A stretch of 64,000 bases of DNA from Sphaerolaimus hirsutus (taxonomy: Eukaryota; Nematoda; Chromadorea; Monhysterida; Sphaerolaimidae): the NCBI GenBank assembly GCA_964036195.1, contig OZ038454.1:23112315-23176314 (forward strand), in the 5' to 3' direction. Positions 5,382 to 62,323 of this stretch are shown one piece after another (position 1 is the first letter of the stretch; each line of letters begins with the position of its first letter). The position numbers and the translations under genes were made by a program. The notes beneath the pieces are model-generated. The model was not told where the DNA came from. It was given only the letters and a program-made list of their open reading frames with translations, and made no database searches.

Positions 5382-8300
5382 ATGGGTTACCCAACCCTTC
5401 TACTATTATTTCTACCCATTTTGGGTAGCGCATTGGGTGCTAAATCCGGTTTAAATTGCATGTTTTTGGGTTACCCCGACTTGGAATACGATGGAGAAGA
5501 TAGAACGGAACCATTGACGGAGAAAAATTTCAATAAAACAGTTTTTGCGCCCGGTGAACAAAGTGTGGTTTTCTTTCACGACGTGCCGCCCAGCGACCCC
5601 AGTTATGATCAGTATGAGTGCTTTTTGCAGGTGTGTGAAGGTTTTTTTGGGGTGGAATAGATCCCTTTTTATTGGGTTTGATCGGGGAGGATGTTGGGGT
5701 GTGTGAGAGACTATTTTTTACCATTTGTATATTATTTTGGTATTGGGGGGGGGGGGGTAATTTAGAGTGACAAAGTGTCAATGTTGACATTCAGTTACCA
5801 AAAATTACTCGACAAAAAGTTAACAAAAGTAAAAGTGACTTCACTTGCTAGCTCAGAATATCTTACCAGCATAAATTAACTGAACAGTCAAGCGTGGAAG
5901 TCAATCACACACCAATTTTTTATCACCATACAACACCCCCCAATCTTCAAACCTTCAAAAAAATCCAACCCCCCAAATACCCCCCCCTCCAAACACAGTT
6001 ATCCGCTCAAATCATGACCGAAAGGGGGTACGATTTCTACACAGTGGACACAGCGAAAGAAGCGAAACTGCGCAAGCAGGAAGAAATCGAGAAGGGTGAC
6101 GATGTGGTCAATGTGTACCAGGGTGGATTTCAGATTGAGTATAATGGCGTCAGGGATCCTGATGTGTTTGTCAGCTGGCTGATGGATGTGGGTTTTGCGG
6201 TGGGGGTTTAAAACAACATTTTTCGTGTTTTAGGTGATTTTAGAAAGAATGAAAACATAATTAAAAAAACAAAATTATTTTTTAGAATTTTCGACCAGTG
6301 ATTTGTTAGATTTACAAGTGACATTTTCCAGTGAAATCCAGTGTCCTACGGAATGGATTTTTTTTTAAAGCGATAGCTTCCCATTTTATTAATTATTAAA
6401 TTTATCAAAAACGTTTTTACCGCAAAGCAAACCTAGGGGAAAAGTGAGGTCCCAGTGCTGCTCTCTTTATAGTGTCATGCAAATGTCAAGTACATAAATA
6501 CGTATGTGTATCAGTTACTTTACATTTTATATGGCACTGTACAGGACGCGGGACGGGCACCTGAAGCCTGAGCCCTGAACCACTATCAAAAACGTGGGCA
6601 CTCCCGGACCCTCTGAAATGCACTGTATTTAAAATGTGATTCAAAGTGTAAAAGTTATGTAAAATGTTATAACCTACCATTTGATATTTCAACGACATTG
6701 TACATAGGTATAACCATACTAGAACCGTCACAAGCTACCTGAATAAACGTAAATCGGGCAACAATCCAACCCAATCGGGCAACCCGACGCAGGTGCCAGA
6801 CGACCCGGTGACCATCGTCAACGACGACGACGACCTGGAAGACTTCGAGGAGATGGAAGACGAGTGCACCAGGGTCGTGGGTTATTTCGATCCGGGCAGC
6901 GCCGACTTTGAGGCCTTTGAAGAGGCCGCTGAGGAGTTCATGGGCGAGGTCGAGTTCTTTGCGGTCGTGCATAATTCGGTGAGTTGTTTTGTTTGGTTTT
7001 TTTTGGTGGGGGGGGGTTAATTCAGGTTGCGTTGGATTTTGGTTTAGGTTTTAGGTATTTGATTGTTTTTGACTAGGTATTTTGAGAATCGTTTTATTTG
7101 TGATATAATACTGTCGAAACTATCCGGACGTCAATGTCGAATCCACGACAAAAGTTTCTTTCAAGACTAATTACTTCTAGCAGAACATAAAGTACATTTG
7201 AGAGCGTGCGTCATTAGGTTGGTGACAATTCCAGACTTTGTACAGTGTAAAGTCAGGTGTCAAATGTCATGTAAAATGTCATGCAAAGTGTCAATTGTCG
7301 TGCAAAATTCAGTAATAATTTTTTTGTTTTGATTGACATGAATTTGACACTTTTTCTTTACACTGTACAAGGTATGGGAGTGCCCCCAGTGTCAACAAAA
7401 ATTAGCTCACTACCTATATTAGTGTTGGAATGAATTCCAGTTGACACTCAACCAGTCCCTCACACAAACCCGTCAACTCACCCGTCAACTCCCCCCCCTC
7501 AGTGGGCTCGCAAACTGGGTCTGCGACGGGTGGGCGACGTGGTCATGTACCGGCCGTACGAGGACGAGCCCATCTGGGCCCCGGTGGACACCGACGAGGA
7601 GGACGAGTTGGAGGACTGGGTCGAGGACAACAAGGAGCCCTTGATGGAAAAGCTGACGCAGGTGAACGGGTTGGGCGGGTGAGGGGGTATGTACAGATAG
7701 GGATGTCTGAATGGAAGTACTGAAAGGAAGGTTTTCCAAAAGCACTTCTCCACTACCTATTTAGTAAAAAATTGTTGTCTGACTTTTTTGAGGGGGGGAC
7801 TATTCAAGAGAGGGAATTATTCAAGGGAGAATTTTTATTTCATCAAAATTCTCCAGCATCTTTCGATCAACTCATTTCATGAAATCGCTTTATTAACAAC
7901 ATAACATGCCATTTTTGTTCAAATTATACACAACAATTTTATCGTATATAAAAAGGGGGGAATAATTTTCCAGTCACTCGTCTAAAAGGGGGGATTTTTC
8001 AAGAGGGGGATTTATTCAAAGGGATTATTCAAGGTGGAACTTATTCAAACAAATACGGTAGGTAAATATGAACTTCGAACGCACTGCCAAGCCCCGTCAA
8101 AAATACCGGCCCGATTTAAAGCCATTCAAATTTTGATCCACATACCTAAATAAATACAAAAAACACCCACAGGAGAACTATTTCGACGTGTGGCGCGACA
8201 CGGACGAGGACCACCACATGATAATCGCCTTCGTCGACGAGGAGACTGACGAGGGTGAAGCCGTGCTCGACCTGCTCGAGGAGCTCGTCGAGGGTGAGCG

Positions 8301-11300
8301 GAGTGGATTGAGATTGACTTGTAATTGGATTAGAATTTGGGTCTGTGCATACTAGGTGGTTGATAAGTGAAACTTTCAAAACAGATAAATCAGTTTGAGC
8401 ATGTCTGAGTTGACCATATGGATTATTTTTGATATCCGTCAAAAGTAGTTGACTGGCTCCTCATTTCAGTAAGCTTAAATGTGTTTGAAACAGAATTATC
8501 AGCATTGGAAGTTTATGTTGTCAACTATTTAGTGTGCGTAGGGTCGTTAAGGCGCGGGTAAGGCGCCCGATACGCGAGTGAAAGCTCAATTACTTTATAC
8601 TCAAATTTTTGAAAAATTGAAAAATGTGCTTGAAAATGAAAGTTTGACAGCGTTTGCTCGTGTCTGGCCTGGCACCTTACGTGCGCTTATAGGTTTTAAT
8701 TGAATCTGGTTTCAGATGCATGCATTTATTATGTATTTCAATGAGACTCCTTTTTCAGAGCTAGACGAATACCGTGTTTCTTCTATCAAAAAAGCTGGTA
8801 ATTTGCACATAAATGTCGCACGCTACATTTTCCTCCCATGCACCGCCCTAAATTACGTTGGAGCCAAACCTTAAAGTGGACAAGTGACTATTTAGAACAT
8901 TGAAAAGTGGTAACCTAACTGTCACTCAAGGTCCGTTTTCCTTCAATTTCCTGTTACTTGTTTACTTGCGGAATCGGCACCAGCAGTGACACTCTGTTAT
9001 TTCCCAATTTGTTGAGCGATATGAATTCAAATTGATCTGTAATATTGCACGACCAAAATACCGTAGATATTTTCCGTCCTAAAAAATTACCACCAACCTG
9101 GATACAGCAAATTCTCGAAAAACTGCCAAATGTGGAAGTTACCCGTTGTGGGTTTATAGCCCCACACACGCTAATTGACATCGACACCAAATGTCAACTG
9201 GTCCCATTCCTCATTCAAAGATTGTGTTCGTTCGTCCACTCGTCAGCAAGCTTTGAATCGGGATCGGCACCAGTTGACATTTGGTGTCGATGTCAACTAG
9301 CGTGTGTGGGCCCTATTGGGGAATTCTTGAGGAGTTATTCAAGGGTGATTTTTCGAGAACTGTCAACTCCCACAATCGCTCGCCTATTGGTTTGATAATC
9401 CATCATTTTCCTGACCTAATATACGTAGATAGGTAAATATGAATGAGACATGTTTTTCCGCCAACCCCCCCCCCCAATCACATTTATCCACCCACTTTAT
9501 CCCATAAATTTTTTTACACGATTTTTACAGTACACTCGTACGGCATGCTTTGCATGGAATGTTACCATAATTTAATGAATTGAGTCACGTTGCAAAAAAT
9601 ACATAAATTTTGCGCCAAGTAAAGGGAATGTGAAACCAACCAATGTCCCATGATGTAAAAATGTTTTTGAAATTTTATCTCATATTCAGATGGATTACGG
9701 TAAATTTTCCTGCAAGGCATCCGTAGATCGCAAAAGTCGATCGGACTAAATATTTAAAACCAAAAAACCCTCAAACCCCCCCCCCCCCAGAAAACACCGA
9801 GCACGTGGGCACCCTGAAAATAGTGCTGATCGACCCCGACGAGTTCGCGCTGATGGTGGACACCTGGGAGGACATGTTCGGCATCGATATTGAGGGAGGC
9901 CCGCAGTTGGGACTGGTTGATATCTCTGAAGTGAGTTGACGGGGGTGGAGAAATATCGGATAAATTGCCAGTTGGCACTATACCCACTAGTTGATAACGA
10001 CAACAAATGTCCTGGTTGTAACGATGGCCAAAAAAGATTCGAAAATTCGAAAACGTTTTCGAATTTTCGAATTTTTTTGGTGATTTTTGTTGAAAATGAG
10101 TAAAAATGCAGAGCCTTAACTAAAAATATCATATTCACATGTATTTTTTGTAGCAGCAAAAGCAAAATACTTATGCGGTAACGGCGGTAAGGCTGTAAAA
10201 CGTGAGAAAAGTCAGACCAAAAATTCGAACATATAATAATTTGAAGCGAAAAGATACGAAAATTCGAAAAGTAATAAAAAAAGTTCGAAGATTTGAAAAT
10301 TCGAAAACTAAATTCGAAAATTAGAAAACTATTTCTAGAAAAAATTCGAAAATTCGAAAAGTCATTTTGGAAAAAATACATAAAAAATTTAAATACTTCT
10401 TTCGAGAGGGTTTGCCATCGTTACCTGGTTGCGATCCCAATTCAAAGCTTGCTTTAAAGCGGGCAGACGGACGACGTTCGAATGAAAATAAAAGCTTTGA
10501 ATTGGGATCGGAAGCAGTTGACATTTGCTGTCGTTGTCAACTAGCGTGTATTATTGGGTGACTATTGTGGCAGTGGCTGTAGGCACTGGTTTACGGTTGA
10601 GATTTCGGAAATTGAGTAAAACGCGAAACGCTCGCAATTTTCGGGCCATAGCCAATTTAGTCTGGCAATCCTTGTTAAAGGACCGTTCAATTATTACAAA
10701 CTTAGATAAACCCGGTCTAATCCCAGCTAAAATATCACGATTAAATCTCACTTGTCAACTCAACAAATCATCAAAAAACCATTTAATGACGCAGAAAGAC
10801 AGCCTTTGGTTTGACATGGACCAGCTAAATCTGGACGAACCTGAGAAATACGAGGACGAAAATGAGGAAGTTCTTCAGGCGTGGATCGATCAAATTCTCG
10901 ATGGCACTATCGATATCGACGCAGGTTTGTCAACTTCGCTGGTTGAATAATATGGGGACTGGTTTGGGACTGTATTTGACTGCTTTAGGTATGTATATTA
11001 TTGTTTGCATACACAGACTTTTTAGTTTACGCGGCGGGAAGTTGACACATTTTTGTAAAAATTGGGCACAACAAAATAATAAAATCTCTAAGGCCGGAAT
11101 TAGAGCTCAGCGTCGAATCGACGCTGAGCTCTAATTCCCGCTTTAAGGGGGAATTATTCGAGCAGGGGATTATTGTTTTCTCACTCGTCTTACAGGGGGG
11201 GTTATTCGAGGGGGGTTATTCATGGGGGAACAATTCAAGCAAATACTGATGATAATCAAGATGAAAATTAAATTAAAAGACGAATTTGACGAAAAGTAAC

Positions 11301-18163: not shown

Positions 18164-20251
18164 TCACTTGGCTTTGTGTTTCTGTGCAGTCGCTGTCACC
18201 TGCGGCTCAAAATCGGGCACCCTGGGGTCTGGTTGTTTGCCGCGGAATGGCGTCAATTCAACCTGAAAGTTGTGAAAACTGTGGCTCAATGTTTTATACT
18301 CGTCGGGCAGGATACCCTGCCCTCGCACCCATTTATGTCTCACGTTGGAAGCGTGTCAATGGTGATAAAGCGTGCGACTTTTGGATGAAAGATGAAAAAA
18401 TCGTTGTTGCGAATAAGTTACCGCTTGGTATTACAACAACGATTACTTTTTCAACTTTTTATGAAAAACGCTTCCAGCGGGAACCACGCGTGCAGGATGT
18501 AAAGTAACTGGAGAATGGTGATCAGAGGTAAAGTAGTGATGGGGCTAAGACCCCCGGGACATCGGGTGCAGCTCAAAAATCGTGTCGGATCTAAAATTCT
18601 GATGAATCTGTTAAGGGTTACCCCTCCATTTGAGACCCCTTGAGCCCGGCGAACGGTGGGTGGGCTTCCTAATCAAATTTCCTATCTGTAATAACGGCAT
18701 GGTGCTATGGTGCTGGCGCCACTGTTAGGGTTCAAACGGGATTGACTTTTCGGGATCGGGATCGGGATTTGTTTTTTGAGATTTCGGGATCGGGATCGGG
18801 ATCGGGATTGGCCAGGATTGGGGTCACGGGAACGGGATTGGCATTTTTTCGGGATCGGGATTGGGGTCTTGGGATAGAGATTTTGGCCGATGTTCTGGCA
18901 TCCACAGTTGTTCATAAAGGTCTCAAAACACTGTTGGATGCCAGAAAATTGGCATAAAATGGACGCTGGGGGGTTGTGTTCACATTTTTGCATGCAAAAA
19001 TGTCATTTTTTCACTTTTTATTATTTCCACTAATTTTTCCGGGATCGGGATCCCGGACTTGGAAGTTTTTCGGGATCGGGATTTGAAAATTTTCGGGATC
19101 GGGATTGCTAAATCCCGGAATTTCACAGGATCCGGATCCCGTTTGAACCCTAGCCACTGTTACGGGACACGCCATGGCGTCATTGACGTCGGGGCTGGCG
19201 CCAGGCAGCGGCATACATCAAAGTCTAGATACACACATATTTATGGTACCCCTCTATTGGAGGCATGTCGTTCAATTAGAAGAAATATAATTTACAATCT
19301 AAATTCCCAGATTGGGAACACACCTCCAAATCGTAATAGGTGTATTTGTTTCCATCGTGGTATTCGGGCACCTTGTACTGGGACCACGGCAGCTTGTTCT
19401 TGGCGCCTGCGTTGTACAAATCGCGATATTACGGTAGTTACAAAAGTTTGAAGGTCCTTGAAGCACCGAACTGAAAAATGAAAGTAGATAAATGGATGTT
19501 TTTGGATACTGTTGGTGGTGACCAGCTGCCCGCTCGCGAAAATAGCCCTACACACACACACACCATGTGGAAGTCCCAAGCACTGTAAAGTGTAAAGTAA
19601 AGTGTCAAATTTAAAGTCAAATGCAAGGTACACTGTCAATTGTAAAGTCAAATGTAAAGTAAAGTGTTAATTGTCATGCAAACTTCAGTAATAAAATCTT
19701 TTCTTTCTTTTGATTGCCACTTTACTTTTCACTTTACCGGGCTTGGGACTGCTCCCAGTTGACAATGACATCGGTTGTCATTTGGGCAGTTTTGTTTCCA
19801 TTCCGATTTTGGTTACTGTGTCGCGAACAATTTTCAAATGCACATACATACCATTATTAATTCCTCCCGCATGTGTACTTGAAAGTTACCCTGCGACTCG
19901 TCAACTAAAATGTAAACTGACATGGAAACAAGTTGACAGTGTGTAGTGTAACTCAGATTGTACAGATTTCTGCAGATTCCCACGAAAAGCAAAAAGGCAC
20001 ACAAAATGTGCAAAAGCCTTTCCGACAAACTTAGGAAAACAGATTCATCATTTTCAGATCATTCCCACCACAAACCAATCAGAGCAACCCCATCCCACCC
20101 CAAGCCCCGCCCACCCACCCAACTGCTTCATGGCGTCGGCGTGCTCGATGCCGCTGGTGAACTGGCCGGGGTCCTGCACGGACGTGCACAGGCGCCCCAG
20201 CCCGGACGGCCGCAAGCCAGCGCACCGGCGTAGAAGAAGTGCGCCGCTCAT
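18164..20251 (-). CDS. NDUFV3: NDUFV3-like complex I subunit, 3 exons
   Basis: Probable small accessory subunit of mitochondrial NADH:ubiquinone oxidoreductase. Exons (transcript order): 20119-20251, 19324-19406, 18164-18262. Splice sites are GT-AG and phases 1 and 0 join without a shift to give 104 residues; the human short NDUFV3 form is about 108. Residues 1-22 are an Arg-rich, acid-free presequence (RRCAGLRPSGLGRL), as expected for import into mitochondria. The diagnostic part is the C-terminal half: YKVPEYHDGNKYTYYDLE then VELTPFRGKQPDPR, which matches the NDUFV3 pattern YK..(x)..HD..YT..DL..EL..FR..QP. This is a family match by memory, not by search. COX5B was considered but its zinc-binding cysteines are absent. 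Intron 1 holds a MITE, and intron 2 holds a hAT-like element inserted in this copy only. Confidence 0.62.
18294..18515. mobile_element. MITE, CTTCCAGCGGGAACCACGCG arm
   Basis: Inverted arms include ATACCCTGCCCTCGCACCCA ... ACGTTGGAAGCGTG on the left and CGCTTCCAGCGGGAACCACG ... GTGCAGGATGTAAAGTAACT on the right. It lies in intron 2 of the NDUFV3-like gene, just upstream of exon 3 in transcript sense. Relatives lie at about 4260-4520, 47499-47745 and 52111-52357. Confidence 0.55.
18726..19152. mobile_element. hAT-like element with CGGGAT arrays
   Basis: A 427-bp element with inverted termini TAGGGTTCAAACGGGAT and ATCCCGTTTGAACCCTA. GCCACTGT flanks both sides (18718-18725 and 19153-19160), a perfect 8-bp target duplication. 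Arrays of GGGATC lie next to both ends in opposite orientation around a unique centre. The second copy has no insertion here (near 47768) but carries a sister element elsewhere (49092-49536). Confidence 0.9.
19558..19760. mobile_element. GTAAAATGTCA-family MITE in NDUFV3-like intron 1
   Basis: The inverted motifs AGTCCCAAGCACTGTAAAGT and ACTTTACCGGGCTTGGGACT frame repeats of AAAGTGTCAATTGT. The second copy lacks the element around 48120. It is non-coding. Confidence 0.55.
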
Positions 20252-21558
20252 TCTGGTGATTGAATTTTGGGATCTGGTGAAGGGTGAGGAAAGTGTATAG
20301 GCTTTTTTAGGGTATACAAGAAGAAAAGGGAGAAAAATCGCTAAAAGTAGGTGTAAAATGGATTAAAATGGGCATATGATAACATATAGTACTAAAAATA
20401 GCTGAAAATAGACGATAAGGAACATGAACTAGTAATTTGGGGGTGAAAGTCTATAAAAAAGAGCGAAAATTGGGGTATAGTTTCACAAAAATCGCTCCAG
20501 ATAGGTAGATAGCTGGCCGGCTTGGGGGGAGGGGTTTAGTGGATTGTAGCCCAAAATTTTTCCTTTCCTACCCCTGGGCCGTGAGCTAGTGTATGTGCAT
20601 GTCCCCACATTAATTAAGTGATCTCAAACTTCAGACAACTGTAAATACCTTACCAAGGATTTGAAACTTTGCGAGAAACGTAAATCTGTCTAACAAAGCG
20701 TAAAACCGACCCAAAAAGTAATTACATATGAGCAGACCTGTACAATCGTAACAAGAACAAAAATTTCAGTATGATAGTGGATCAAGTGTGAACGGACACT
20801 GGTAACGTTTGATGCATCAATTATTGATGAATTGATTTAAATACACTTTCATGTATTCAGAATGCCTCTCGTTCATTTTCTGCGTGAAAACTGGACGCTA
20901 CAACTAGGACTGGGAAAGTTACCGGAACTTGACGGTTAATAGTAATGTACCGAGTCCGGTACCGGAACTTCCGCACCGTTCAACTGGGGGCAGTCCCAAG
21001 CCCTGTAAAGTGTAAAGTAGAGTGTCAAATGTAAAGTCAAGTGTCAAGTCAAATGTCAAATGTAAAGTAAAGTGTCAAATGTAAAGTCAAGTGTCAAGTC
21101 AAACGTCAAATGTAAAGTTAAGTGTCAATTGTGTATCCAAATTTTTTTTTTCGTATCCAAATCTTATGTTTTTGTATCCAAATCTTGTTTTTCGAAATAA
21201 GATTTGGATACAAAAACATAAGATTTGGATACAAAAAATAAGATTTGGATACACAATTGACACATTACTTTTGATGTGACACTTGACTCTACATTTGACA
21301 CTTTACTTTACATTTGACATTTGACTTGACACTTTACTTGTCATTTGACATTTGACTTTAAATTTGACACTTGACTTTACACTTTACAGGGCTTGGGATT
21401 GGCACCAGGAGTGCGCAGTTTCCCAGCCCAAATGCAGCGTAACTTGATCACAGACACGTCAATTATATATTTCGCAATCCAAAATGAGTATCAAAAACAG
21501 CTTTCCAGTCCACGAAGGCACAATCAAACACAAATACAAACAAAAATCACTCGCAGTG
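20252..21558. other. Intergenic, NDUFV3-like promoter side to EIF1AD 3' end
   Basis: It should contain the NDUFV3-like promoter, transcribed leftward from about 20251. About 20280-20580 is a fragment of the family with AGATAGATAGCTGG and ending CTACCCCTG; the second copy lacks it. A MITE occupies 20984-21408. The remainder (20590-20980) resembles 48780-49075 of the second copy. No gene is seen. Confidence 0.55.
20984..21408. mobile_element. Copy-1-only MITE of tandem GTCAAATGTAAAG units
   Basis: A 425-bp element with ends CTGGGGGCAGTCCCAAGCCC and GGGCTTGGGATTGGCACCAG. Each arm is built from tandem GTGTCAAATGTAAAGTCAA units and the centre is an inverted AAGATTTGGATAC repeat. The second copy reads CACCGTTCAACAGGAGTGCG at the empty site (near 49600). 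Confidence 0.75.
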
Positions 21559-35147: not shown

Positions 35148-35347
35148 NNNNNNNNNNNNNNNNNNNNNNNNNNNNNNNNNNNNNNNNNNNNNNNNNNNNN
35201 NNNNNNNNNNNNNNNNNNNNNNNNNNNNNNNNNNNNNNNNNNNNNNNNNNNNNNNNNNNNNNNNNNNNNNNNNNNNNNNNNNNNNNNNNNNNNNNNNNNN
35301 NNNNNNNNNNNNNNNNNNNNNNNNNNNNNNNNNNNNNNNNNNNNNNN
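35148..35347. other. Assembly gap, 200 N
   Basis: Exactly 200 N. A round number of this kind is usually a scaffolding placeholder of unknown true size. Sequence to the left matches the end of the duplicated block; sequence to the right restarts it within calsequestrin intron 3. Confidence 0.99.
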
Positions 35348-47333: not shown

Positions 47334-48499
47334 TCACTTCGCTTTCTGCTTCTGTGCAGTCGCTGTCACCTGCGGCTCAAAATCGGGCACCCGGGGGTCT
47401 GGTTGTTTGCCGCGGAAGGGCGTCAATTCAACCTAAAAGTTAGCACGCGTTAAATATAAATCTAAGCGGGGAATACCAGCGCCCAAATTCCCTATCTCTA
47501 TACTCCAGCGACTCGACACCTTGCACGCGTGGTTCACGGCGTGCCAACGGTAAAATAGCGCACGCGATTTCCATAAAAGTTTGTAAGCTTAATTGCTGTT
47601 GACGTTATAACGTTATACGTCGACGTATTCAAACCAATGAAGTTTTTCACATTTTTACAAAAATCGCATGCTTTGATTATCATTGGCACGTTTCCAAAGT
47701 GAAACATATCAGTGCGAGTGCAGAGTATCAAGTAAATTAACGAAATGATGCTATGGTGCGGCCCCATTGTTAGGGGCCACGCCATGGCGTCATTGACGTT
47801 GCAGCTGGCACTATACCTTAATGTCTAGCCAGACGCATGTGGTGCCTTTCTACTGGAGGCATGTCTTTCTATTGGAAGAAATACGGCATTAAATACGATC
47901 AGAACTAGGGTTGGAAACAAAACGTTTAAAAAAAACATCGACCAACCCTAATCAGAACTCACCTCCAAATCGTAGTAGGTGTATTTGTTTCCATCGTGGT
48001 ATTCGGGCACCTTGTACTGGGACCACGGCAGCTTGTTCTTGGCGCCTGCGTTGTACAGATCCTGTTTTTACGGTAGTTACAAATGTTTGAACGTCCTTGG
48101 GGCTGATAAATGGGGCTGATAAATGAAACTGATTTATGTAGATAACAAATGTCTTGGATACCATCGGTGACCAGCTGCCTGCTCGCGAGAATGACCCTAC
48201 ATACACTCGTTGACAGTGACATCGGATGTCAACTGGACAGACTGGATTTTAGTTGGATTTAGTTAATGTTGACGGAGACCACAGACACATTTCTGGCCAA
48301 CTGCTTAAAACAGGTATCTATATCATCTCTGGAAACTTGACATCAACACACCCCCGGCCCACCCACCCAACTGCTTCATGGCGTCTGCGTGCTCGATGCC
48401 GCTGGTGAACTGGCCGGGGTCCTGCACGGACGTGCACAGGCGCCCCAGCCCGGACAACCGCACGCTGGCGCACCGGCGGAGAAGTAGTGCGCCGCTCAT
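47334..48499 (-). CDS. NDUFV3: NDUFV3-like complex I subunit, second copy
   Basis: Exons (transcript order) 48367-48499, 47963-48045 and 47334-47432 have the same lengths and phases as the first copy and give 104 residues. The changes are concentrated in the presequence (Gly12 to Ser, Leu13 to Val, Pro15 to Leu) and near the end (His to Gln in QKHKAK). The mature core, including YKVPEYHDGNKYTYYDLE and FRGKQPDPR, is unchanged. That fits purifying selection on the core and freedom in the cleaved presequence. Intron 2 lacks the CGGGAT hAT-like element of the first copy but has its own 45-bp insertion at 47906-47950 and a MITE at about 47499-47745. Confidence 0.62.
47499..47745. mobile_element. 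MITE, TATACTCCAG family
   Basis: Left TATACTCCAGCGACTCGACA ... GCACGCGTGGTTCACG and right CATTGGCACGTTTCCAAAG ... GCAGAGTATCAAG are inverted relatives. It lies in intron 2 of the second NDUFV3-like copy, offset from the related element of the first copy (18294-18515), so the two may be independent insertions. Confidence 0.5.
47906..47950. mobile_element. 45-bp micro-hAT-like element
   Basis: Only 45 bp: TAGGGTTGG at the left and CCAACCCTA at the right, joined by about 27 bp with AAAACG and AAAAACATCG remnants. ATCAGAAC flanks both sides (47898-47905 and 47951-47958). Termini and residues match the 746-bp element at 25880-26625, so this is an extreme internal deletion derivative. It sits 12 bp from exon 2 of the NDUFV3-like gene. 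Confidence 0.85.
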
Positions 48500-49752
48500 T
48501 GTGGGGGGAAGGTGGGGTCTGGGGGAGAGGGGGGGAGGTTTGAGGAGTCTGGTTGGAGCCGTGGTTGGTGTCGGTTGAATAGATTGATGCCGATAAATAT
48601 GTATGACACCTAGTTGATGATATTTACGATAGATCAGCGGTGAACGCATCTGAGTTTGCCGCAATAATGAGTCCGCCAACTACAGTTGACGGAGATGGAA
48701 AATTAATTCTTCTGGTAGACACAAATGCGTTCAAGCATGATTTATCAGTTTGGAAACATTCGATCGTGAACTAGCGCGCGTGGTCACATTCTTCAAGTGA
48801 ACTTACGTTTCAGACAATTGTAAATACATTACCAAGAATATGAACCCAAAATCAACTTAACGAAGCGTAAAACTGACCCAAAAATAATTAAATATGAGCA
48901 AAACTGTGTGATGCAAAACGAGTGGAATATCAGTATAATATGATAGTGGATCAAGGATCAAGGGACCCGGATAACGTGCAATGATGTAGAATGCTATTTA
49001 GAATGCTTGGTGTTCATTTTCTGTGTAAAACTGAACGCTACAAGTGGGGCTGGCAAAATTGCCGGACCGTAATGGTAATATTACCAGAGAGTAGGGTTCA
49101 AACGGGATTGACTTTTCTTCGGAATCGGGATCGGGATTGTTTTTTTTTGAGATTTCGGGATCGGGATCAGGATTGGCCGGGATTGGGGTCACGGGATCGG
49201 GATTGGCATTGTTTCGGGATCGGGATTGGGGTCTTGGGATAGAGATTTTGGCCAATGTTTTGGCATCCACAATTGTTCATAAAGGTGTAAAAACACTGCT
49301 GGATGCAAGAAACGTGGCATAAAATGGACGCTGGGGGTTTGCGTTCACATTTTTGCATGCAAAAACGTCGTGTTTTCACTTTTGATAATTTCCAGTAATT
49401 TTTCCGGGATCGGGATCCCGGACTTTGGAGTTTCTCGGGATCGGGATCAGGATTTGAAAAGTTTCGGGATCGGGATCGGGACTGCTAAATCCCGGAATTT
49501 CACGGGACCCGGGATCGGGATCCCGTTTGAACCCTACCAGAGAGTAGAGAAAATATAGTGTACCGAAGCGAGTCCGGTACCGGAAATTCCGCACCGTTCA
49601 ACAGGAGTGCGCAGTTTCCGAGCCCAAATGCAGCGTAAATTGATCAGACACGTCAATTAAATAAATCGCAATCCAAAATGAGTATCAAAAACAGCTTTCC
49701 AGTCCACAAAGGCACAATCAAACACAAATACAAACAAAAATCACTCGCAGTG
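48500..49752. other. Intergenic, second copy, NDUFV3-like / EIF1AD
   Basis: Counterpart of 20252-21558. It lacks both the AGATAGATAGCTGG fragment and the 425-bp MITE of the first copy, but holds its own CGGGAT element (49092-49536) and a palindromic MITE around 48590-48785. No gene is seen. Confidence 0.55.
49092..49536. mobile_element. hAT-like CGGGAT element, copy 2 site
   Basis: A 445-bp sister of 18726-19152 with the same TAGGGTTCAAACGGGAT termini, but inserted at a different place. CCAGAGAG is duplicated on both sides (49084-49091 and 49537-49544). The first copy is empty at this site (near 20945). Each copy thus has its own insertion of the family. Confidence 0.9.
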
Positions 49753-51677
49753 CTATCTTGTAGCCGAAAACAAGCCCCTGGTTCTGTTGGGATTGCAAAC
49801 TGCAGATTGTGAATTTTCATCGCTAGATTGTGAAGCGTCACTTTGGTGCCTTGATCGATTGACTGAATCATTTTTCGAGTTTTCATTTTCGATTTCAGAG
49901 TCTGAACTGTCGGAAGGCGGCAGCATGTCCTGGGTTTTAAGGATTAAAAATATAAGGCCCCGTTTACACGGATTTTTGTGACGACTCGACAACAATAAAA
50001 TGTTCAATAAGTTGAGTAAAAAGGTTCCATATTCATTAGAAAAAGTGGTCAAGTATACCTTCTACCTAAGCGAATATGCAGGCCAAATTGCAGACTCGTG
50101 CTTGTAGCTCAAGATTTATAACGTTCGAAAAAAGTTTGCTATTGTCGCTGGCTGTCGGAGACAGTCCGACAACTGTCCGACAACTGCAAAAGTTTTCAAA
50201 TGCCTTTAACTCATGAGGTACAAGCACGATTGTGCAATTTGTCATGCATATTCGCATAGGTAAGATGTATAATTGACCACTTTTTCTCATAAAAATGGAA
50301 CATTTTTACTCAACTTATTGAACGTTTTATTTTTGTTGAGTCGTCACAAAAAATCCGTGTAAACGGGGTCTAAGGGTGTGAAAAATGGTAGAAATTTGAA
50401 ATGACATGTTTGTCAGTTTGGTTGATTGTAATTTTGTAAAGGCTTCAACAACAAAACAAAAAATGGATAGGGATGACACCGTCGAATTCTATGTGAATAT
50501 TTGATAACGATGTGATGTGAAAACAAGCTCGATATTTCGCTGCAATACATCCTCATTTTTAATATTGTGAAAAATTTTCTTTAAAAAGCCTATTAAAAAA
50601 AATCTCCAAAAAACAACCCAATCGAAATAGCCCAAAAGACAAAAATATCACTCAAAAATCAAACGCACCCGATCCACATACTGCTCACTTCCATCAGTAG
50701 CACATTCATCAGCGCATAACCATCTCTGCGGCCACTCACTTTTCATGCTATCCATTAATTCTCCAACGGCAGTTTGCGACAAAATCCTTGAAATTTCCGC
50801 AGTGACTTTGTTGCCCTCGTCGATGGGGCGGCACAAAACAAAATCGCCCCGTTTCACCCAAACAGTGCGACGGAACTGCAAATGTGATGTGGGGGGTGTA
50901 GCAGGGGTTTTGTCAATTTAGACCCCCCGGTGGTTCATGTAGATAGATAGTAAATCGACCTTCGAAGGGATAAATAGATGACTAAATTTATTCCGGGGGA
51001 GTAGGGGATGTGCGGGGGAGGGTTCGCGGGTGTTCAATATATATTTATATACATTTTCAAGGTGTAAAAGAAAAAAGGGAGCAAAATTGGGGGGGGGGGC
51101 GATTGTGTGGGTTCAAGTATAGTAGCCAAAATTTTGGCCTCGGAATAGATAGATAGCTGGAGCGTGTAAACATGTGGTTCAAGTCTAGAAAAGCCGGTCT
51201 TGTTGGCAATGGGAAGTGGGTGGAGCGGGGGAACGCAGGTTCAGTTTTCATTGTTACAAAAACACAGTGATGTGATGGACACGGGTATTTTGACACAGGA
51301 CACAAGTAAAATGAGAATTTTCAATACCACAGCTTTGGCCTAAATCCCGACAATATGATCCAAATCCCGAAAACTCCAAAAAATAACCCCGACTGAGATC
51401 CCAAAAATCTTAAATACCAATTCCGATCCAGACAACTCAATCCCGTTTGAAGCCGGACCCCAACCCAACCATTCAATTTCAGACAAAAAAATCAACCCAC
51501 CTTCGTGGGCATACTGGCCAGCGTACTCGAACCATCGGTCAACTCAACCTCATGCAAATTGTTGCCTCTACCAGCGAGAATTCTGCACACAAACTCGTCT
51601 GGCTGCGGGGGTTCGAAATCCGATGTGGCCGCTTCTCGGGCGACTATTCTTCGCTTTGTTGCCACTGAGCTGGACAT
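49753..51677 (-). CDS. EIF1AD: EIF1AD, second copy
   Basis: Exons (transcript order) 51501-51677, 50669-50875 and 49753-49929 are the same lengths as in the first copy (177, 207, 177), giving 186 residues. One clear coding change is Ile112 to Leu (QRWICADE becomes QRWLCADE). The reading frame and all four splice sites are intact. Intron 1 is about 1.35 kb shorter because the foldback at 22429-23804 is absent. Intron 2 is longer because of a 415-bp palindromic MITE (49956-50370), whose right end lies 26 bp upstream (transcript sense reversed) of exon 3. Its role is as for the first copy. Confidence 0.93.
49956..50370. mobile_element. PIF/Harbinger-like palindromic MITE, copy 2 only
   Basis: A 415-bp element with ends GGCCCCGTTTACACGGATTT and AAATCCGTGTAAACGGGGTC, flanked by TAA on both sides. 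Long inverted arms include TGTGACGACTCGACAACAAT. The first copy reads AAAATGTAAGGGTGTG near 21760. It is related to 28151-28364 by its ACACGGATTT arm. Confidence 0.88.
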
Positions 51678-52685: not shown

Positions 52686-52916
52686 GGGCCCACACACACT
52701 AGTTGACATCGCAAATTCGCGTCAACTCAGTGTCAATTGAATAAAACAAGAAGTTTGTAAAAAGCATCACACTTAACAGGAACAATGAAAATGAAGTGTC
52801 ATGATGTAAAATTAACTATGCTCTATCAGATAGATAAGTTGAAATCACAGTATCACTTAAATTCAGTTGACATTTAGTTGACACGAATTCAGTTGACATC
52901 CAGTGTGTGGGGGCCC
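52686..52916. mobile_element. GGGCCCACACAC-family MITE, copy 2 only
   Basis: A 231-bp element flanked by TAC on both sides. Ends GGGCCCACACACACTAGTTG and CAGTGTGTGGGGGCCC, with GTCAACT arms inside. The first copy has the empty site TCACTACATGGGG near 25345. Its right end is the sequence found at the broken contig edge (35099-35147). Confidence 0.85.
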
Positions 52917-53036
52917 TACATGGGGCCAATAACGTTTCGCCCATAACCCAACGTTTTCTACACAAATGAAAACGTCATTGATCAAACTCGGCGCAAATAT
53001 TATAATGACAATCTTCAAGTCAATCTGCAAAAAAAA

Positions 53037-56000
53037 TCACTTGTTCAGCGCGCGCTTTTTTCGCACCTGAAGCATATCGTAGAACGGATTGTGACTGATG
53101 CTCGCCCTGCGTTTATGCAAAAAAAATTGACAACACGTTTAATTAATTGTGGACCTAGATATTTTGGCTTTGTGAAAAATACACACGTGTTTGTATTTGT
53201 ATAAAATTGGAACTGAGCCCTGGGGGAATTTATAGATTGGAGGAGGACTGGGGCAAACGAAAGCATCAGCAAAATTCAATATAAAAATGTTCAAGAAATT
53301 CGTTGAGATAGTGAAAACAGGGGTATCTTGAATTTTGACCCTCCGAGTGGTTGGATAGATAGCTGAGCGGGTTTTGGGATAGATAGATAGCTGGAAAAAA
53401 TTTGGGATGGGGGGGGGGTTTGAGGGGGTTGTGGTGGTTCGATATATAGGCTATTTCAGGCTGTAGAAGGAAGAAAAGGGAGAAAAATCGCTAAAAGTAG
53501 GTGAAAATAGCGCAAAATGGGTATACAAGAGCATATAGTTTTGAAAATAGTTAAATCGGAACAAAAAGTAGTATTTTGGAGGTGAGAACCTATAAAAAGG
53601 TATGAAAAATAGCGATTTTGAGCGAAAATTAGGGTATAGTTTATCAAAAATCGCTCCAGATAGGTAGATAGCTGAACGATGTGGGGGGGGGGGGGCGGGT
53701 TTAGGAGGTTGTAGCCCAAAATTTTGCCTCCGGGATAAATAGATAGCTGGGCGGTTTGGGGGGCTAACCCCCCCACCATTCGAAACCCCTGAGTGAAAAG
53801 TATTCAAAGCCTAAGTTATTTGGAGTAAAACCATATTCAATGTCTAAATGAATCAATTCATCAAATAAAATGATAATAATGATAAATGATACAACTCACT
53901 CCAATGATTTAATCCAAGCATCCTTTTCCTCAGCAGTAGCAGCAGACATCCTATAAACACTGTGCTTACCTGTGATATGACAACTTGGGTCAAAACGACA
54001 AGAAATGTAAAGAGCCCAACATATTTTCGTATAGGAGGTACATGAATACAATTTGCTAACACAAATCTGTACACACATTGAATACTTGAAATTAAATTGC
54101 TAGGTCAACATTGGGAGTTTGGGCCTGTCAAAAATCGCCACATTTAATCGTCTGACGTATAATTATTGGGCCTATAATTGACGCAGCGTTGATTTATTTC
54201 AGTCATCAATTGAAGTTTTTGAATCGAATCAGTGTCAACATGTGAATTTTATGTGTATTCATCCAAGTGAATAAAAGCGATTTTGACACACCGAAAAAAT
54301 GCCATTGACACTTGAATTCAATTGACGCCGCGTCACTTAGAACGCGTAGACACTAGGGATGGCCCGTGTTTTTTAACCGTTTTTTTTTTAAAAAACGTTG
54401 TTTTAAAAAAACAGGCATCGAAATTCGAAACCGTTTTTTTAAAAAAACAGCAGCCAAAATTTTTGTACTATGTACTAGGTATTTTGCAATTGTTTTGCGC
54501 GCAAGCGCGCAATTTCACATACTCTTTACCATTTGTGAGCGTTTTCATTGGTTTTAAGGCATTTTTTTGCGTGAAAGCTTCCATTTGTTCATGCTATTGT
54601 GTCATAATAAGCCGTGATATGTTAGTGTAGCATAAAATATCCAGCCAATGTGCTCCCACATACTTCTACAGTGTGATCCACCACTGTGAATGGATTAACC
54701 TTATATTATAACCTTATATAAGTGCTATTTCATGCAAAACTTGACTTGAAGTCACGAACATTCGACAAAAGGCGATATACGTAACAAGTCCACAAAAAAT
54801 GGATATTTTTGACAGAGATCACCACTTATAATGCTATTTATCCCATGGCTCCACAGCCATTCTGTGTCTATATACAGGGACGTATCCAGGATTTTTGAGC
54901 GGGGGGGGCTGCTTGTTTACGGGGGCCGGCGAACGGGGGGGGCTCAGCCCCCCCCCCTAAATTTTTTTCCCTATATATGGACGGAAAGGCGTTTTGGCGC
55001 TAGCGCCATACAAAGGCGCCACGCCATGGCGCTATTGGCGTTGGCGCCAGCGCCAGGAACCGCTTTGTATCATGGGCGTACGCAGGGGGGGGGGGGGCGG
55101 GGGGGGCGGCCGCCCCCCCCCGTTCCCGGGCCGGACATAAAAATTTGCCAGGAATGGCACTTTTCTAAAGCGATTTTGTACGCACTTTCAAAATTTTTTG
55201 CGCGCAAGCGCGCAAATCCCCATCCCATTGTTTGATGTGTATTTTCAGGAGCTTAAAAAGCATCATAAAAGTGTCTAACATGGTCTTAGTCCTATATATA
55301 GGTCTAAATCGGTACCAATAGAGTATACGTTGGCGCCAGCGCCAACGCCAATACTGCCATGGCGCTGGCGCCTACAAATGGCGCCAGCGCCAAGGCTCCA
55401 TTCCTTTACAATAGGGCCAAATTTTAGGGGGGGGGGGCGCCGCCCCCCCCGTTCGCCGGGCTCCGTAAACAATCCGCCCCCCCCCGCTCAAAAATCCTGC
55501 GTACGTCTAGGGTGTCAACTTTCCGTTTTCCGTTTTCCGTTTCCGCAGGCAAATTTTTTTCCGTTTCTGTTTCCGTTTCCCGGCTGCTAAAATTTTTTTC
55601 CGTTTCTGTTTCCGTTTTTCCGGCAAATTTTTTCAGTTTTTCCGCCTTTTTCCGTTTTCCGGTTCAATTGTCTATTTTTCCAACTTTTTTCCACTTTCCA
55701 GCTCAATTTTCTGTTTTCTGTTTCAGCCAAACTGGTAAAAATGCATGCAGGTTCTCAATGAAGTGAATTTTTCCTATTTCTAGTGAGATTTCTGCAAATT
55801 TTTTTAATTCAGGACAAATTTCTGCAAATTTTTTTCAGTTTCTGGCAAAATTTCAGCAAATTTTTTCCGTTTCCGGCATAATTTCAGCAAATTTTTCCGT
55901 TTCCGTTTCCGTTTTCCGGCCTTCCATTTTTCCGTTTTCCGTTTTCCGGCAAGTGCAAAAAAATTTCCGTTTCCGTTTCCGTTTTCCGGCATGTGCAAAA

Positions 56001-59000
56001 AATTTTCCGTTCCCGTTTCCGTTTTCCGCCAAAAAGTTTTTGTTGACACCCTACGTACGTCCCTGCTTTGTATGTATGTAAATATGCATACATATTCAGC
56101 GAAATTTGGAAAATCTGTTCATTTCCAAGAAAATTGGTTTTCAGGGGCCGATCCGCTGAAAATACAATGCATGGGCAAGAAATTGCGCGCTTGCGCGCAA
56201 AAAATTTTTAAGAAACATCGAAAAATATATGGGAAAAGTGGCATTTTCCGGGGCTTTTTAGGTCTCACCCCGGGAAGGGGGGGGGGCTGCAGCCCCCCCC
56301 GCCCCCCCCCCCTGGATACGTCCTTGTTTATATGTAGCATCACAAAGTACTGGCAATTGTTTGATATACCTGTATATGTTGACCCATAACCATATCTGGG
56401 AGCTTTTAAAAAAACCGTTTTAAATTTAAAAAAACAGGGTCGTTAAAAAAACGTTTTTTGGCCATCCCTAGTAGGCACATCTCAGATACAAATCATCAGG
56501 CTACCGGAAAACATCAAGTAAGGCTGATAAAATAAAGTTCCAAATAACCTTCAACCACTTTCCCATCAGCATCAGTTTTACAAGCTTTGATTATATCGCC
56601 ATTTGTAGCATAGATTTCGAATGCATTCTGTCTGTTTACCACATTGGACGCGCACTCGCGCACTTTGACATTTTCAAGTGGAATTATCCCCCGAGGCTCT
56701 TTGTCCTGTGAAATGTAAATTGAAACAATGTTGGAACAGTGCCAAAAATGCGAAAAAGAAACAAACCGTTGTGAATTCGAAGTAATAAAGGCAGTTGTCA
56801 TTTAGAATGAACCACCTTCGTTTCCACGATTTGTAGCGACCACCTGAGACAGAAAAGCGTCATTTTTACGATGTCACCAAAAAATGATTGTGAACGCTCT
56901 ACAACCCAACACCTAAAAACACTCTAAAAGCAGAACGGTAAATCGCTTTGGCGATACATAGGCACAAAAAAAACAAAATCACCAGGAATAGTAGACAGTA
57001 AAGAGGCGTTCACATGGATTTGATGTGACGACAAAGCATAAGTTGAACTTTTTCAAATGGAATTTACAAAAGTTGTCTTTGTGCAATAAACGTATTAGCT
57101 ATTTTGGGCATGGGGAAGAACGTTTTTTTACTTTTATATTTTTTAACCTTCATAGATTTGTCAATTTAAGCATCATTGTGTGTAAACGCACGTCAAATCC
57201 GTGTGAACACCTCTAAATATCGGAAAATTCAGAAGACATTCGGAAATGCACTGGAACAATGAAAAGAAACACAGACACGAAGAAAGACAGATAGAAGAAT
57301 TATCAAGTGGCAGAGAGTAGCAGAAAACAGAAACTCACTCAGCGCATTTGCACCTGTAAAGTGAACGCGATGAAAGTAAAGAAGGCACAAGTAGCGATGG
57401 AAAAGCTCCAAAAAAAGTAGTGTAATGATCATAAAAAGGGCGCCAGCCATTTTTGCGCCACTGCTAGATGTGCTGCACTATGAGTAGAATAAAAAGCGCC
57501 ATGCAATTTATATAAAAAATGTTTCGGTAATGCAAACCGATGGTGCCAAATGCACTCTTCCGTGGCTAACAACAAATTAAAGGAAATGTTCGAAAAAAAA
57601 CACTGTTTTCGCAAAACATCCCGAAATAGCAGCTAATTTTCAAAAAAACAAAAACAAAAAAATCCTCCCACCTTGTTTCCACAGCCAGCCCTCTCTGTCC
57701 GGATTGAAAAATGTGTGCATAAGATCATTTCCGTCATCTTCGGGTATCTTGAATGGCTCTGTTCTGATGTTTTCGTACAGGCTCTGAAAGTGATAAAAAA
57801 TGCAGTTGATACAATCGCAGAAGCGAATTGAAATTGATATTGAAAGGAAGCAAAAATATCTTATTTATCTGAAGCAAATTTTGAGCGATTTTACCCTTAT
57901 TTTCATTTAAAATTATAAAAATGTATGTATTGCCCATTTTCACCGTTAAAATGACTATTTTGGGTTACATAGTAGTTATAAAGGTCGGTAGCTACTTTGA
58001 ACCAATTTTTACTTTGAAAGAATGTAAACTGCAAAAAGATTGAACCGGTCGCAAAAAATGTGCCCAACCCATGCCCAAAAAATTCACGCAAAAAAACACA
58101 AAAAAATCGAACCCACCGCCAGCAACTGTTCGGGCAAATCAGCACCCTCATTGATGCCTCGTTTCATTTTGATGAACTGCTCCAACATGGGCTTGTCCTT
58201 GACGCAGGGGTTGTGCAACGAGGTGTTCAACATTATTATGGCGAATGACAACACGTAGCAGGTGTCTGAGCGTGTGGATAAGTTCGTTATTATTGGAAGT
58301 GTGCCAAATAGGGATGGTTGAAGCTTTTTAAGCCGTTTTTAGAGGAGAACGACTACAATTGCAGCGAAAATTTTATTCATATTCTACGGCACCAGTGTCA
58401 CGTGACTGCAGTAGTTTTGACAATGTTTACGATGGGTATTGCAAAAATATACTTTCAGAAAACACGCCGGGTCGCATTATTTGCAATATACGACCTTCCA
58501 TTTGATTTGAAAAAGTACATACTGCTTTAAACGTCCTCCTGGGAGCGATGGTAGGTAAATTCAGTTGTTTATATTTCCTATCAAAAAAGCGTTTTTATCG
58601 ACATTATAATAAGCTGCCAAACTAAAAGTTGTACCAACCTAATGAAGTAAATACGCCGGGGTTGCAGCCACAGTATCTTTTGGCGAATGCCTCCATCATT
58701 CTGTCGATTTTCTGCGCTTCTCCGGGCAGCCGAAAGCTCCATAGGAATTGTCTGAAACAGGGACGTATCCAGGATTTTTGAGCGGGGGGGGGCTGCTTGT
58801 TTACGGAGGCCGGCGAGGGGGGGGGGCTCAGCCCCCCCCCTAAAATTTTAGCTACATAGTGGCGGAAAGGCCCCATGGCGCTGGCGCCATTAGTAGGCGC
58901 CACGCCATGGCGCCATTGGCGTTGGTGTCAGCGCCAGGGAGCGCTGTATATGTATGTAAATATACATACAAAACAGCAAAAAGCACAACATTGAGTGTAT

Positions 59001-60703
59001 TTATGACGATTTGCGGCCACATAGAGCAAATCTGATGATAATACAGCTTATGTCTGGGGAAGAATGCGCGCTTGCGCGCAAAAATTTTTACGCTGACGTT
59101 GAGAAGTCGCATTTTCCGGTCACTTTCTGGTCTCGCCCCGGGAGGGGGGGGGCTGCAGCCCCCCCCGCCCCCCCCCTGGATACGGCCCTGGTCTGAAAAT
59201 ATAGGAGTTGTTACTATCAGTTTACCGGACGATTTACACAGAATGGCACCATAATTTGGTGAATAATGAATTGATGTGGTTAATTTTCTGCTTTTCAACA
59301 GTGAAAACAATATGGGGAAAATTTGTGTTAATTATTGATTGGATATGGCGCATTTTCTGGCAGTGTGAGATCAATAGATTGTACACAGATTCCACTCAAC
59401 GTGGAAGATGAATAGCGGTAATAAAACTCCTAAAGTCTGTAATGACTCAAATGCATAACTCAAAAAAGCCACCGTTTTACCTGAGCGCTTGTACCAATAT
59501 CAAATCTGAGAAATCGTGCAGTTCCACAAATGCGTGCATCGTTGCCAAATTAAAATCATCTTTCTCTCCCAGGTATTCACCCACAGCCGATTTGCTCAAT
59601 CCTGTATAATTACAGATTGAAATTTCAACCGCAGAGATTGATAAACGCGGCATCAATTCAAGAAAGTCATGAATTAAATATGCAATTGAAAATGTGTCAA
59701 AATCAAGTATCAGTGATATTTTTATTTTCAAAATTCAAATTTTATAACTGATTTGAATGAGATCATGTAATCCACCACGAATTTTGAACTTTTGATTTTT
59801 GAACACTTTCAATTGACAAATAATATCAATTGACGGCGAGTCAACTGGTGTTTGCAGACATAAATACTCAAAAATACCTTCTCCCTTGTGCAAAAATTCG
59901 GCAACTGCCTCAGGAGTGTGTTGTAGCAGATCGTGTTCCACCAAATAAGCTATGCCTTTCCGTGGGTCCATATTGAACTTTTTGCGACCGATTGAATGCG
60001 CTTTAAGCCTCGGATTGCCTTTGCTGTAAAGAGAAAAAGTGTGACAAAAAGAATTGTCGCCTGTCTATAATATTTGCGAAGAATGGGCGACAGTTTTTTT
60101 TAAGGTAAATACTCACTCATCGTCAACGATATCCAAGGCTTCGATTTCTCGATTGACTTGCGAGAGTTCGGCACGGATTTGCTGAAAACGTGAAGGTGCG
60201 AAAATTTGTACCAGCCCCGAGGTGAAGATATAAAAGTAATGTAAAAGCAGTAAACGAGTGCATCAGCCCAAAACTGGCAGATTTGCCATGTAAAATGGAT
60301 GCCTTCTTAAAGAACCTCTTATCTCAAAACTGGGGAAATATTCAAAGGGATTTTTTTTGGGGGTTGTAGCCTCATACCAAAACTATTGAACAGCACCAAA
60401 ATTGGGCATGGCACAAAATTGAAGCATCAAAAGTGTGATGTAACCGCAGCCCCCGCTTCTCTATGATGAAAAGTCTCTACTATTCTGTGCCGTAGTGTAT
60501 TGTCAACTTCATCGACTTTCTTTACTTAGCAACAAACCTCAATTTCAGATAGAAGTTCCTCTTTGCGTTTGCAAATTTTCAACAGCACATTCTTTTCCTC
60601 ATCCGTCAGGTCTGAAAACGATTTGAAATCATCAAAACCTAGTAAATGTTTCCTATCATTTAAAGGTAGAAGATATCTCACCTGCTGTATTAAATGCGGC
60701 CAT
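53037..60703 (-). CDS. CYTH: Cytohesin, second copy
   Basis: Exons in transcript order: 60682-60703, 60538-60611, 60117-60181, 59878-60023, 59481-59601, 58639-58751, 58117-58265, 57672-57783, 56767-56843, 56549-56705, 53900-53969 and 53037-53106. Every exon has the length of its counterpart, total 391 residues. The changes I found are silent except Asn215 to Lys in the Sec7 MNRGIN motif, which is nearly invariant in cytohesins. The exon 11 donor here is a consensus GTGAGT (GTGGGT in the first copy), and this fixed the phase of the last two exons. Intron 10 contains a four-level transposon nest. A hAT-like element lies on the exon 6 acceptor. The promoter-proximal part parallels the first copy. 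The gene appears functional. Confidence 0.96.
53318..53791. mobile_element. hAT-like element (CAGGGGTATC family), copy 2 site
   Basis: A 474-bp element in cytohesin intron 11, flanked by AGTGAAAA on both sides (53310-53317 and 53792-53799). The ends CAGGGGTATC and GAAACCCCTG and the GATAGATAGCTGG repeats match the element at 32036-33293, which is in a different intron of the other copy. Confidence 0.88.
55071..56065. mobile_element. Nest level 3: CATGGGCGTACGCAGG hAT-like element
   Basis: Ends CATGGGCGTACGCAGG and CCTGCGTACGTCCCTG (the right end is split by the level-4 insertion). CTTTGTAT is duplicated perfectly on both sides (55063-55070 and 56066-56073). It has internal G and C runs and GCGCGCAAGCGCGC. 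Confidence 0.88.
55508..56053. mobile_element. Nest level 4: TAGGGTGTCAAC element with CCGTTTTC arrays
   Basis: A 546-bp element with inverted TAGGGTGTCAAC and GTTGACACCCTA ends. CGTACGTC lies on both sides (55500-55507 and 56054-56061). The interior is arrays of TTTCCGTTTCCG and CCGTTTTCCGGC. The whole element is strongly pyrimidine-biased on this strand. The apparent open frames across it are low-complexity. Confidence 0.9.
58750..58757 (-). other. Cytohesin exon 6 splice acceptor retained inside a target-site duplication
   Basis: On the minus strand these 8 bases read TTTCAGAC: the intron's last six bases (TTTCAG) plus the first two exon bases. The same 8 bases recur at 59191-59198 on the far side of the inserted element, so the acceptor core exists twice, 441 bp apart. 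Confidence 0.88.
58758..59190. mobile_element. hAT-like element inserted on the cytohesin exon 6 acceptor, copy 2 only
   Basis: A 433-bp element with ends CAGGGACGTATCCAGG and CCTGGATACGGCCCTG. GTCTGAAA is duplicated perfectly (58750-58757 and 59191-59198). The first copy has GTCTGCAAATATAGG with no insertion (near 30400). In transcript sense the element now supplies the sequence just upstream of the working acceptor, including C-rich tracts. Confidence 0.92.
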
Positions 60704-62323
60704 TTTTTCATTCGCAAAGGTGACCGGTACGGACGAGATCCGTAAAAATATCTTACCTTTTTTGTAAAAATAAAATTTGGATACACATTCTTCATACAAA
60801 CTTCGGGAATCCCGACATAATGTGAACTTGGCACCTGTCCAAAAGCCGTATGGATATCCCGTATGGCGCCCGTGAGCGACCATATCCGGTCGCTTTATCA
60901 CATTCCGCGGACATTATCAGTTACTAAGACGGTAATTTTGTATCTTTTACTCTCGTTCGTACATTATGTAGTCGTATCCAAATATAAAATTATACTTCAT
61001 TGGAAAAATGCCAAGTTCCCATAATGTCGGCGATCCGAAACTTCGCTTGTGCATGAATCCAAAACAGCAGCGGGAAGTTATTTCTGAGCAGGCGTTTGTA
61101 CTCCGCCTTTTTGTATCATTTCTTTGGACAAAAATGTGAAAGTAACGTTAAGGTGGCGCCATCACAGACTAAACTTCCCGTTATAAATCACAAGGATGTA
61201 CCGATCCGAAGGGATGGGTTACCTTGATGAGTTCTGCGCGGGAAGATTTCTCAAGTTGGCGCATAAGTCACTTTTGTCACATTGTCATTAGTCACTTTTT
61301 CCGTTCCTGACACTTGTCTCATCGTGCGACAATGTGAAATTGACCCCTGTGTTCCGGGTGCACGTAAATTTGACCGTTTCGCTGACCGTTTGACTCGTTT
61401 GACCGAATGTCGTGCCATATAATTTGAGCATTTTTGTTGTTGATTCGATCCAACTTTTATCACCTTTGATTTCCCGACGCCCAGTGAATTGATTTGTTGT
61501 TTTTTTGTCAAGTGCGGCAAATGCAAATTTTTTTTATACTTTTGCCCGACAAAACATTTATCGAATGCTGGCCTTTTCAGAATTATGTATTTAGCGAAGC
61601 CCAAAATTTAACATCAGCACAATGAACAGTTGTGAGGATTTATGCGGGTAAATATTCCTGTGTTTCTGTGTTATTTTACGCGTTTTATGTAGGCAGCTGC
61701 CTTTTTAATTCGAGTTATTTTAATGGAAATTTCACTTTGACCGTGTGATGTTGAAAGGTGCCGTTTTTATATCGCCAATTTTCTGCAAGTGACATCTCTA
61801 ATCAGACAGAAGTGATATTAATGTCAATGTACGGTTATGTAATGTCAATGTTTATGTGAACTGAAATGCTCAAAGTATTGATTTAGCACTCGCACTTGTT
61901 TTATAGTTTGTTATGTGAAATTTACCGAAATCAAGATCGTGAAATGGGTGCACAACTGTTTTTGTTGTTAATTTTTGCTAAATACATAGCCTGGGCCGTA
62001 TCCATTATTGTGTTTAGTTTTCACACGAAATTTCGAAAACTCACAAATCAGCTTAGAACGCATTTGAGTTTTCTACATTGAGGTGGCTGTCAACTACAGT
62101 TGACAGTAATTAAAAATGACCCATTGTGGAAAACTCAAACACGTTCACAGCTCATTTATGAGTTTTTGGAATTTTTTGTGAAAACGATTGTGCGCAGGGC
62201 CAATAGGTATTTGAATACTGCGCTTTCTTTTATGTAATCTTGTATTTACCTATGTTGTTTTTTGCTGCATTTTATCTAAATATACATAAAAATAGAACAT
62301 TTTCAGGTAAAACCTACAGAACT
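60704..62323. other. Divergent upstream region, cytohesin (second copy) / tetraspanin
   Basis: About 60704-62190 matches 33624-35098. It should carry the cytohesin promoter on the left and the tetraspanin promoter on the right. A palindromic MITE lies at about 62012-62190. Similarity to the first copy ends near 62200. An acceptor-like TTTTCAGGTAAAACC at 62300-62315 just before the tetraspanin ATG hints at a 5' UTR intron. Confidence 0.5.

Follow-up and report, generated by a model that had tools for sequence, protein, structure and literature searches.

The window analysed here, a whole stretch of 64,000 nucleotides (C6:23112315-23176314) on a scaffold of 30.05 Mb in an assembly of 348,482,957 bases and 762 contigs, contains a long direct repeat. 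Its two copies very probably belong to two allelic contigs that were placed one after the other, a familiar type of assembly artefact termed heterotype (haplotypic) false duplication. This reading of the sequence agrees with the original prediction, which had proposed that two haplotypes were scaffolded as a false tandem duplication, and it is supported by the overlap at the contig edges, the placeholder gap, the single-match flanks, the constraint on the coding sequence and the sequence private to each copy.

Geometry of the repeat and the contig edges

We observed two copies matched colinearly on the plus strand, the order and the orientation being kept, with the single gap of the window, exactly 200 N, between them on one scaffold. 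The elements of the repeat are the following.

7056-35098, plus strand: copy A, the right part of contig 1, read as one haplotype (colinear chain of matches)
35099-35147, no strand assigned: the end of contig 1, the end of a MITE-like inverted-repeat element absent at the matching copy B site 62204 (49/49 identity)
35148-35347, no strand assigned: assembly gap, 200 N (counted N)
35354-62204, plus strand: copy B, the left part of contig 2, read as the other haplotype (colinear chain of matches)

A block repeated in the same orientation across a 200-N gap had been predicted, and was found with the earlier coordinates correct within a few bases: the starts near 7050 and 35348 stand, while the end had to be corrected, as copy B ends at 62204 and contig 1 extends 49 bp beyond the homology.

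Contig 2 starts at 35348, and its alignment to copy A begins at the seventh base. On the other side of the gap, the homology of contig 1 to copy B ends at 35098, 49 bp short of the contig end. These last 49 bp (35099-35147) are unlike the sequence that follows 62204 in copy B, and are identical at 49 of 49 positions to 52868-52916 on the minus strand, where an inverted-repeat element of copy B ends; they are best read as the start of a further private insertion, with the contig ending inside it. All bases at the contig edges are accounted for, save the first six of contig 2. Within 344 kb, the initial 120 bases of contig 2 match only their copy A partner. No sequenced joint between the end of copy A and the start of copy B is present in the assembly, where 200 N stand instead.

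The copies differ at 743 of 19,001 aligned columns (3.9%), or at 674 of 18,341 columns (3.7%) if the poorly aligned segment 18272-21402 is left out. This segment, compared with approximately 47442-49600, is by far the most divergent, with 56 and 52 mismatches in neighbouring 500-column blocks, the mean being approximately 20; it contains many short tandem repeats and is a hypervariable segment. Such heterogeneity of divergence along the copies does not discriminate between alleles and paralogues.

Genes of the region and selection between the copies

The genes in and around the repeat are listed below.

5382-6978, plus strand: calsequestrin exons 1-3, left of copy A only (Pfam matches)
7503-10924, plus strand: calsequestrin exons 4-7, copy A (Pfam, exon comparison)
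21613-24412, minus strand: EIF1AD, copy A, span of compared pieces (Pfam, solved-structure match)
25469-31446, minus strand: cytohesin (Sec7 and PH), copy A, span of compared pieces (Pfam, solved-structure matches)
35829-41388, plus strand: calsequestrin exons 4-7, copy B (exon comparison, splice sites)
49807-51677, minus strand: EIF1AD, copy B, span of compared pieces (exon comparison)
53040-59971, minus strand: cytohesin, copy B, span of compared pieces (exon comparison)
62295-62394, plus strand: putative first exon of tetraspanin, present only to the right of copy B (assigned by reading)

The original prediction had named calsequestrin, cytohesin and EIF1AD, and these names are borne out by Pfam and by matches to solved structures. 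At least one exon each of calsequestrin and Sec7 scores above the Pfam cut-off; the cut-off is not reached individually by calsequestrin exon 1, the PH exon or either eIF-1a exon. The best solved-structure relatives by sequence are cytohesin-1 for a Sec7 exon (4.5e-22), the cytohesin-2 PH domain (4.1e-15) and EIF1AD (2.9e-6). The predicted name of tetraspanin holds through an exon situated just right of the window (L012:429-638), which is above the Pfam cut-off; the stretch 62295-62394 was assigned by reading, and the ORF submitted from it did not match any Pfam family. The NDUFV3-like name is unconfirmed: none of the 34 ORFs submitted (a subset of ORFs) had an NDUFV3 match in Pfam, and a motif scan was uninformative. 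Neither a tRNA scan of the window nor an Rfam scan at gathering scores gave any match.

In the tetraspanin gene to the right of the repeat, two exon-like frames (L012:4068-4487 and L012:6530-6790), located 2.4 kb apart, carry CCG-type large-loop motifs. Their matches to the tetraspanin profile of Pfam overlap, spanning positions 139-167 and 138-187 of 225, and neither reaches the cut-off; the two frames may be alternative, mutually exclusive exons.

The start of contig 2 corresponds to the calsequestrin intron after exon 3, and the second calsequestrin, as had been predicted, lacks exactly the exons that lie left of the contig edge, exons 1-3 being situated outside the repeat, at 5382-6978. 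The calsequestrin homologues (77 matches, of which the organism-labelled ones are all nematode except one fish) place the host among the nematodes. The window sequence groups with just two others in a 33-row tree (support 100/100), and since its branch is long, its placement within the nematodes is unsure.

For 16 exon pieces comprising 1,893 coding bases, we observed 25 synonymous and 2 non-synonymous differences between the copies, with no stops and no gaps, so the exons are indeed near-identical, as expected from the original prediction. The differences are distributed over the genes as follows.

Calsequestrin: 11 synonymous, 1 non-synonymous
EIF1AD: 6 synonymous, 0 non-synonymous
Cytohesin: 8 synonymous, 1 non-synonymous

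The calsequestrin pieces are exons 4-7; for EIF1AD and cytohesin the pieces are the protein-like parts that were recognised, maybe not whole exons, and this choice may bias the comparison towards conserved sequence. With 18272-21402 left out, mismatches constitute 1.4% of the exonic columns and 3.9% of the other aligned columns; pS between the copies is 6.3%.

In exons 4-7 of the copy B calsequestrin, the 11 synonymous differences and the single non-synonymous one fall on 110 synonymous and 436 non-synonymous sites, respectively. All four exons have intact AG and GT splice sites, and contain neither a stop nor a frameshift. If copy B had drifted freely since the split, approximately 23 non-synonymous differences would be expected, and the probability of observing at most one is approximately 2-3.5e-5. 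Thus, given this strong constraint, the 'truncated' calsequestrin is not an old decaying pseudogene. The test weakens as the share f of the divergence that followed the truncation becomes smaller (P = 0.09 for f = 0.1, P = 0.36 for f = 0.05).

Copy number, gaps and alternative explanations

Unique flanks had been predicted only on the outside of the pair, and in agreement with this, a single match in the 348 Mb assembly was obtained for calsequestrin exon 3 and likewise for the stretch 62295-62394. For a cytohesin stretch of 2,233 bases, with 40 of 2,585 candidates scored, there are two full-length matches, which correspond to the two copies of the block; all remaining matches among these scored candidates, 39 of 41, are confined to the first 175 bases, a dispersed repeat. 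No third full-length copy was found among the 40 candidates scored, as a false duplication predicts, and on the same 40 of 2,585 candidates the existence of such a copy is unlikely.

In 344 contiguous kb there are four gaps, every one exactly 200 N; therefore, the gap size is a placeholder. This length may be the default of the Hi-C scaffolder YaHS. When the sequences on both sides of each gap were compared, matches of at least 200 bp numbered 21 (18.3 kb) at the window gap and 0, 2 and 1 at the other three, the last gap being covered by 28 kb on its right side. No further long colinear direct repeat was found in the 344 kb. Exons with a proteasome domain gave 18 matches, grouped manually into 10 loci, none of which is repeated within 100 kb; two of the loci share one scaffold, 190 kb apart. 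Since one of the four gaps overlaps and none of the 10 proteasome loci is repeated, the error looks, in this small sample, like a residual, local one, the assembly being for the rest largely single-copy. On the same counts, a wholesale failure to purge haplotypes is unsupported in the small sample.

The edges of the neighbouring gap (C6:23096206 and 23096407, L010) lie in repeats with copies of 99-100% identity nearby (13 and 8 matches, respectively); at the gap at 23198987, neither edge has such repeat copies.

It is improbable that the duplication is real and that its joint lies concealed in or at the gap, and a real young five-gene tandem duplication in a nematode, with both copies under purifying selection and the joint in the gap, is about equally doubtful. 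If the unit of such a tandem duplication were larger than the visible overlap, both copies would be whole genes, and a tetraspanin copy together with exons 1-3 of the second calsequestrin would lie inside the gap. With the joint inside the gap, the assembled sequence would have the same appearance as in the case of a haplotype overlap. A placeholder gap could hide kilobases, the purifying selection on both copies also suits two working paralogues, and the three other gaps in the 344 kb are without allelic overlap. However, calsequestrin exon 3 and 62295-62394 match once each in the 348 Mb, hence the hidden copies must be missing from all 762 contigs, and, besides there being a gap, the entire cluster must really have been duplicated. 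We consider this variant unlikely.

Alternatively, a recent tandem duplication could have arisen by unequal exchange between divergent alleles, with the breakpoints at the contig ends. In this case the divergence would be older than the duplication, and hence the truncated calsequestrin would be undecayed; the constraint test indeed loses power if at most one tenth of the divergence followed the duplication (P = 0.09 at f = 0.1). On the other hand, the gap must then coincide exactly with the joint, and when the initial 120 bases of contig 2 were compared with the 344 kb, no mediating repeat was seen in them. The chances of this variant appear very low.

Finally, an old tandem duplication of exactly the visible unit, with the copy B calsequestrin being a truncated pseudogene, would fit the assembled copy B having no calsequestrin exons 1-3, but is rejected, with a negligible residual probability, on account of the constraint on that gene (one non-synonymous difference versus approximately 23 expected, exons 4-7 without stops or frameshifts, and intact splice sites).

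A true segmental tandem duplication resembles the present case in having a multi-gene block in direct repeat; unlike it, here there is a gap at the joint, the outer flanks have single matches, and the 'truncated' gene is constrained.

Under the preferred explanation, two allelic contigs placed in series, contig 1 would have extended rightwards on one haplotype, halting just inside a mobile element, and contig 2 would have started on the other haplotype, approximately 28 kb further left. The allelic contigs would thus share an overlap of approximately 27-28 kb, which would have been missed by the scaffolder, the contigs being placed in series with a 200-N placeholder. The copies would then be alleles, originating from one worm or from pooled worms, and the real order would be, once each, calsequestrin, NDUFV3-like (the unconfirmed name), EIF1AD, cytohesin and tetraspanin. 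Two observations count against the haplotype explanation: the other three gaps in the 344 kb are without such an overlap, so it is not an assembly-wide rule, and the pS of 6.3% is high, though in C. brenneri nearly one in ten nucleotides is reportedly polymorphic.

Heterotype false duplication is a term of the Vertebrate Genomes Project, and the marks of false duplications are half depth, a gap between a pair on the same scaffold, discordant read pairs and one-copy k-mers (PMC9516828). As proposed for our case, divergent alleles are there adjacent on one scaffold with a gap between them, and produce false gene gains (PMC9516828). There the host is a vertebrate; here it is a nematode, and of these marks the gap between the pair is the one observed, together with the overlap to both contig edges.

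In the hyperdiverse nematode C. brenneri, the share of duplicated BUSCO genes decreased from approximately 30% in an older assembly to 1% in an assembly of an inbred strain, the duplication in the older assembly being attributed to residual heterozygosity, and nearly one in ten nucleotides is polymorphic, as cited in the preprint (PMC11230420). A divergence of 4% between alleles falls inside the range reported there for C. brenneri (PMC11230420, preprint). The uncollapsed heterozygosity of C. brenneri is similar to our case in that high within-species diversity swells the number of duplicated genes; unlike it, here there is one overlap of contig ends, and the chromosome-scale assembly is single-copy in the other places sampled (PMC11230420 for C. 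brenneri).

If the scaffold were annotated unchanged, cytohesin and EIF1AD would each gain a false second copy, and a truncated calsequestrin, equally false, would be recorded. Read correctly, it would provide an allelic comparison over 27 kb, which suggests that this nematode is highly heterozygous and carries many insertion polymorphisms. An overlap test of contig ends at gaps is a cheap, read-free screen for similar errors.

Private sequence and mobile elements

The introns had been predicted to differ by single insertions. Consistent with that, we observed clean one-sided gaps of at least 100 bp in both copies (n = 16; neither 'complex' gaps, where both copies have unmatched sequence, nor gaps shorter than 100 bp enter this count), the extra sequence belonging to copy A in nine cases (4,887 bp) and to copy B in seven (4,407 bp). 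Five of the 16 gaps have identical flanking duplications of 4-9 bp that are single at the empty site, that is, target-site duplications, at the following positions.

Copy A: 22428, 25880, 29681
Copy B: 49958, 52686

The copy B segment 37402-38859 has a TA duplication and terminal inverted repeats matching at 40 of 40 positions. For the remaining one-sided gaps, the flanking test gave duplications that are shorter, imperfect or missing, and hence some of these gaps may be deletions.

Among the 17 private pieces (the 16 gaps and the 49-bp end of contig 1), 11 are covered elsewhere in the 344 kb over at least 30% of their length; for the other six, no other place in the 344 kb covers at least 30%. 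Related inverted-repeat elements present in one copy only are located at approximately 9156-9300 and 25142-25295 in copy A, and at 39647-39824 and 52686-52915 in copy B.

A short inverted-repeat family, with ends like GGGCCC-CACACAC, occupies five one-copy-only sites including the contig edge (35099-35147), and a more distant relative of this family (64%) is found at 10472-10557. The segment 27448-27622 is a dispersed repeat of approximately 165 bp with at least 39 further matches on many scaffolds. A direct repeat of 1,295 bp with 99.8% identity and its copies 11 kb apart (L006:9163 to L007:457 versus L008:431-1725) is a very recent insertion or duplication.
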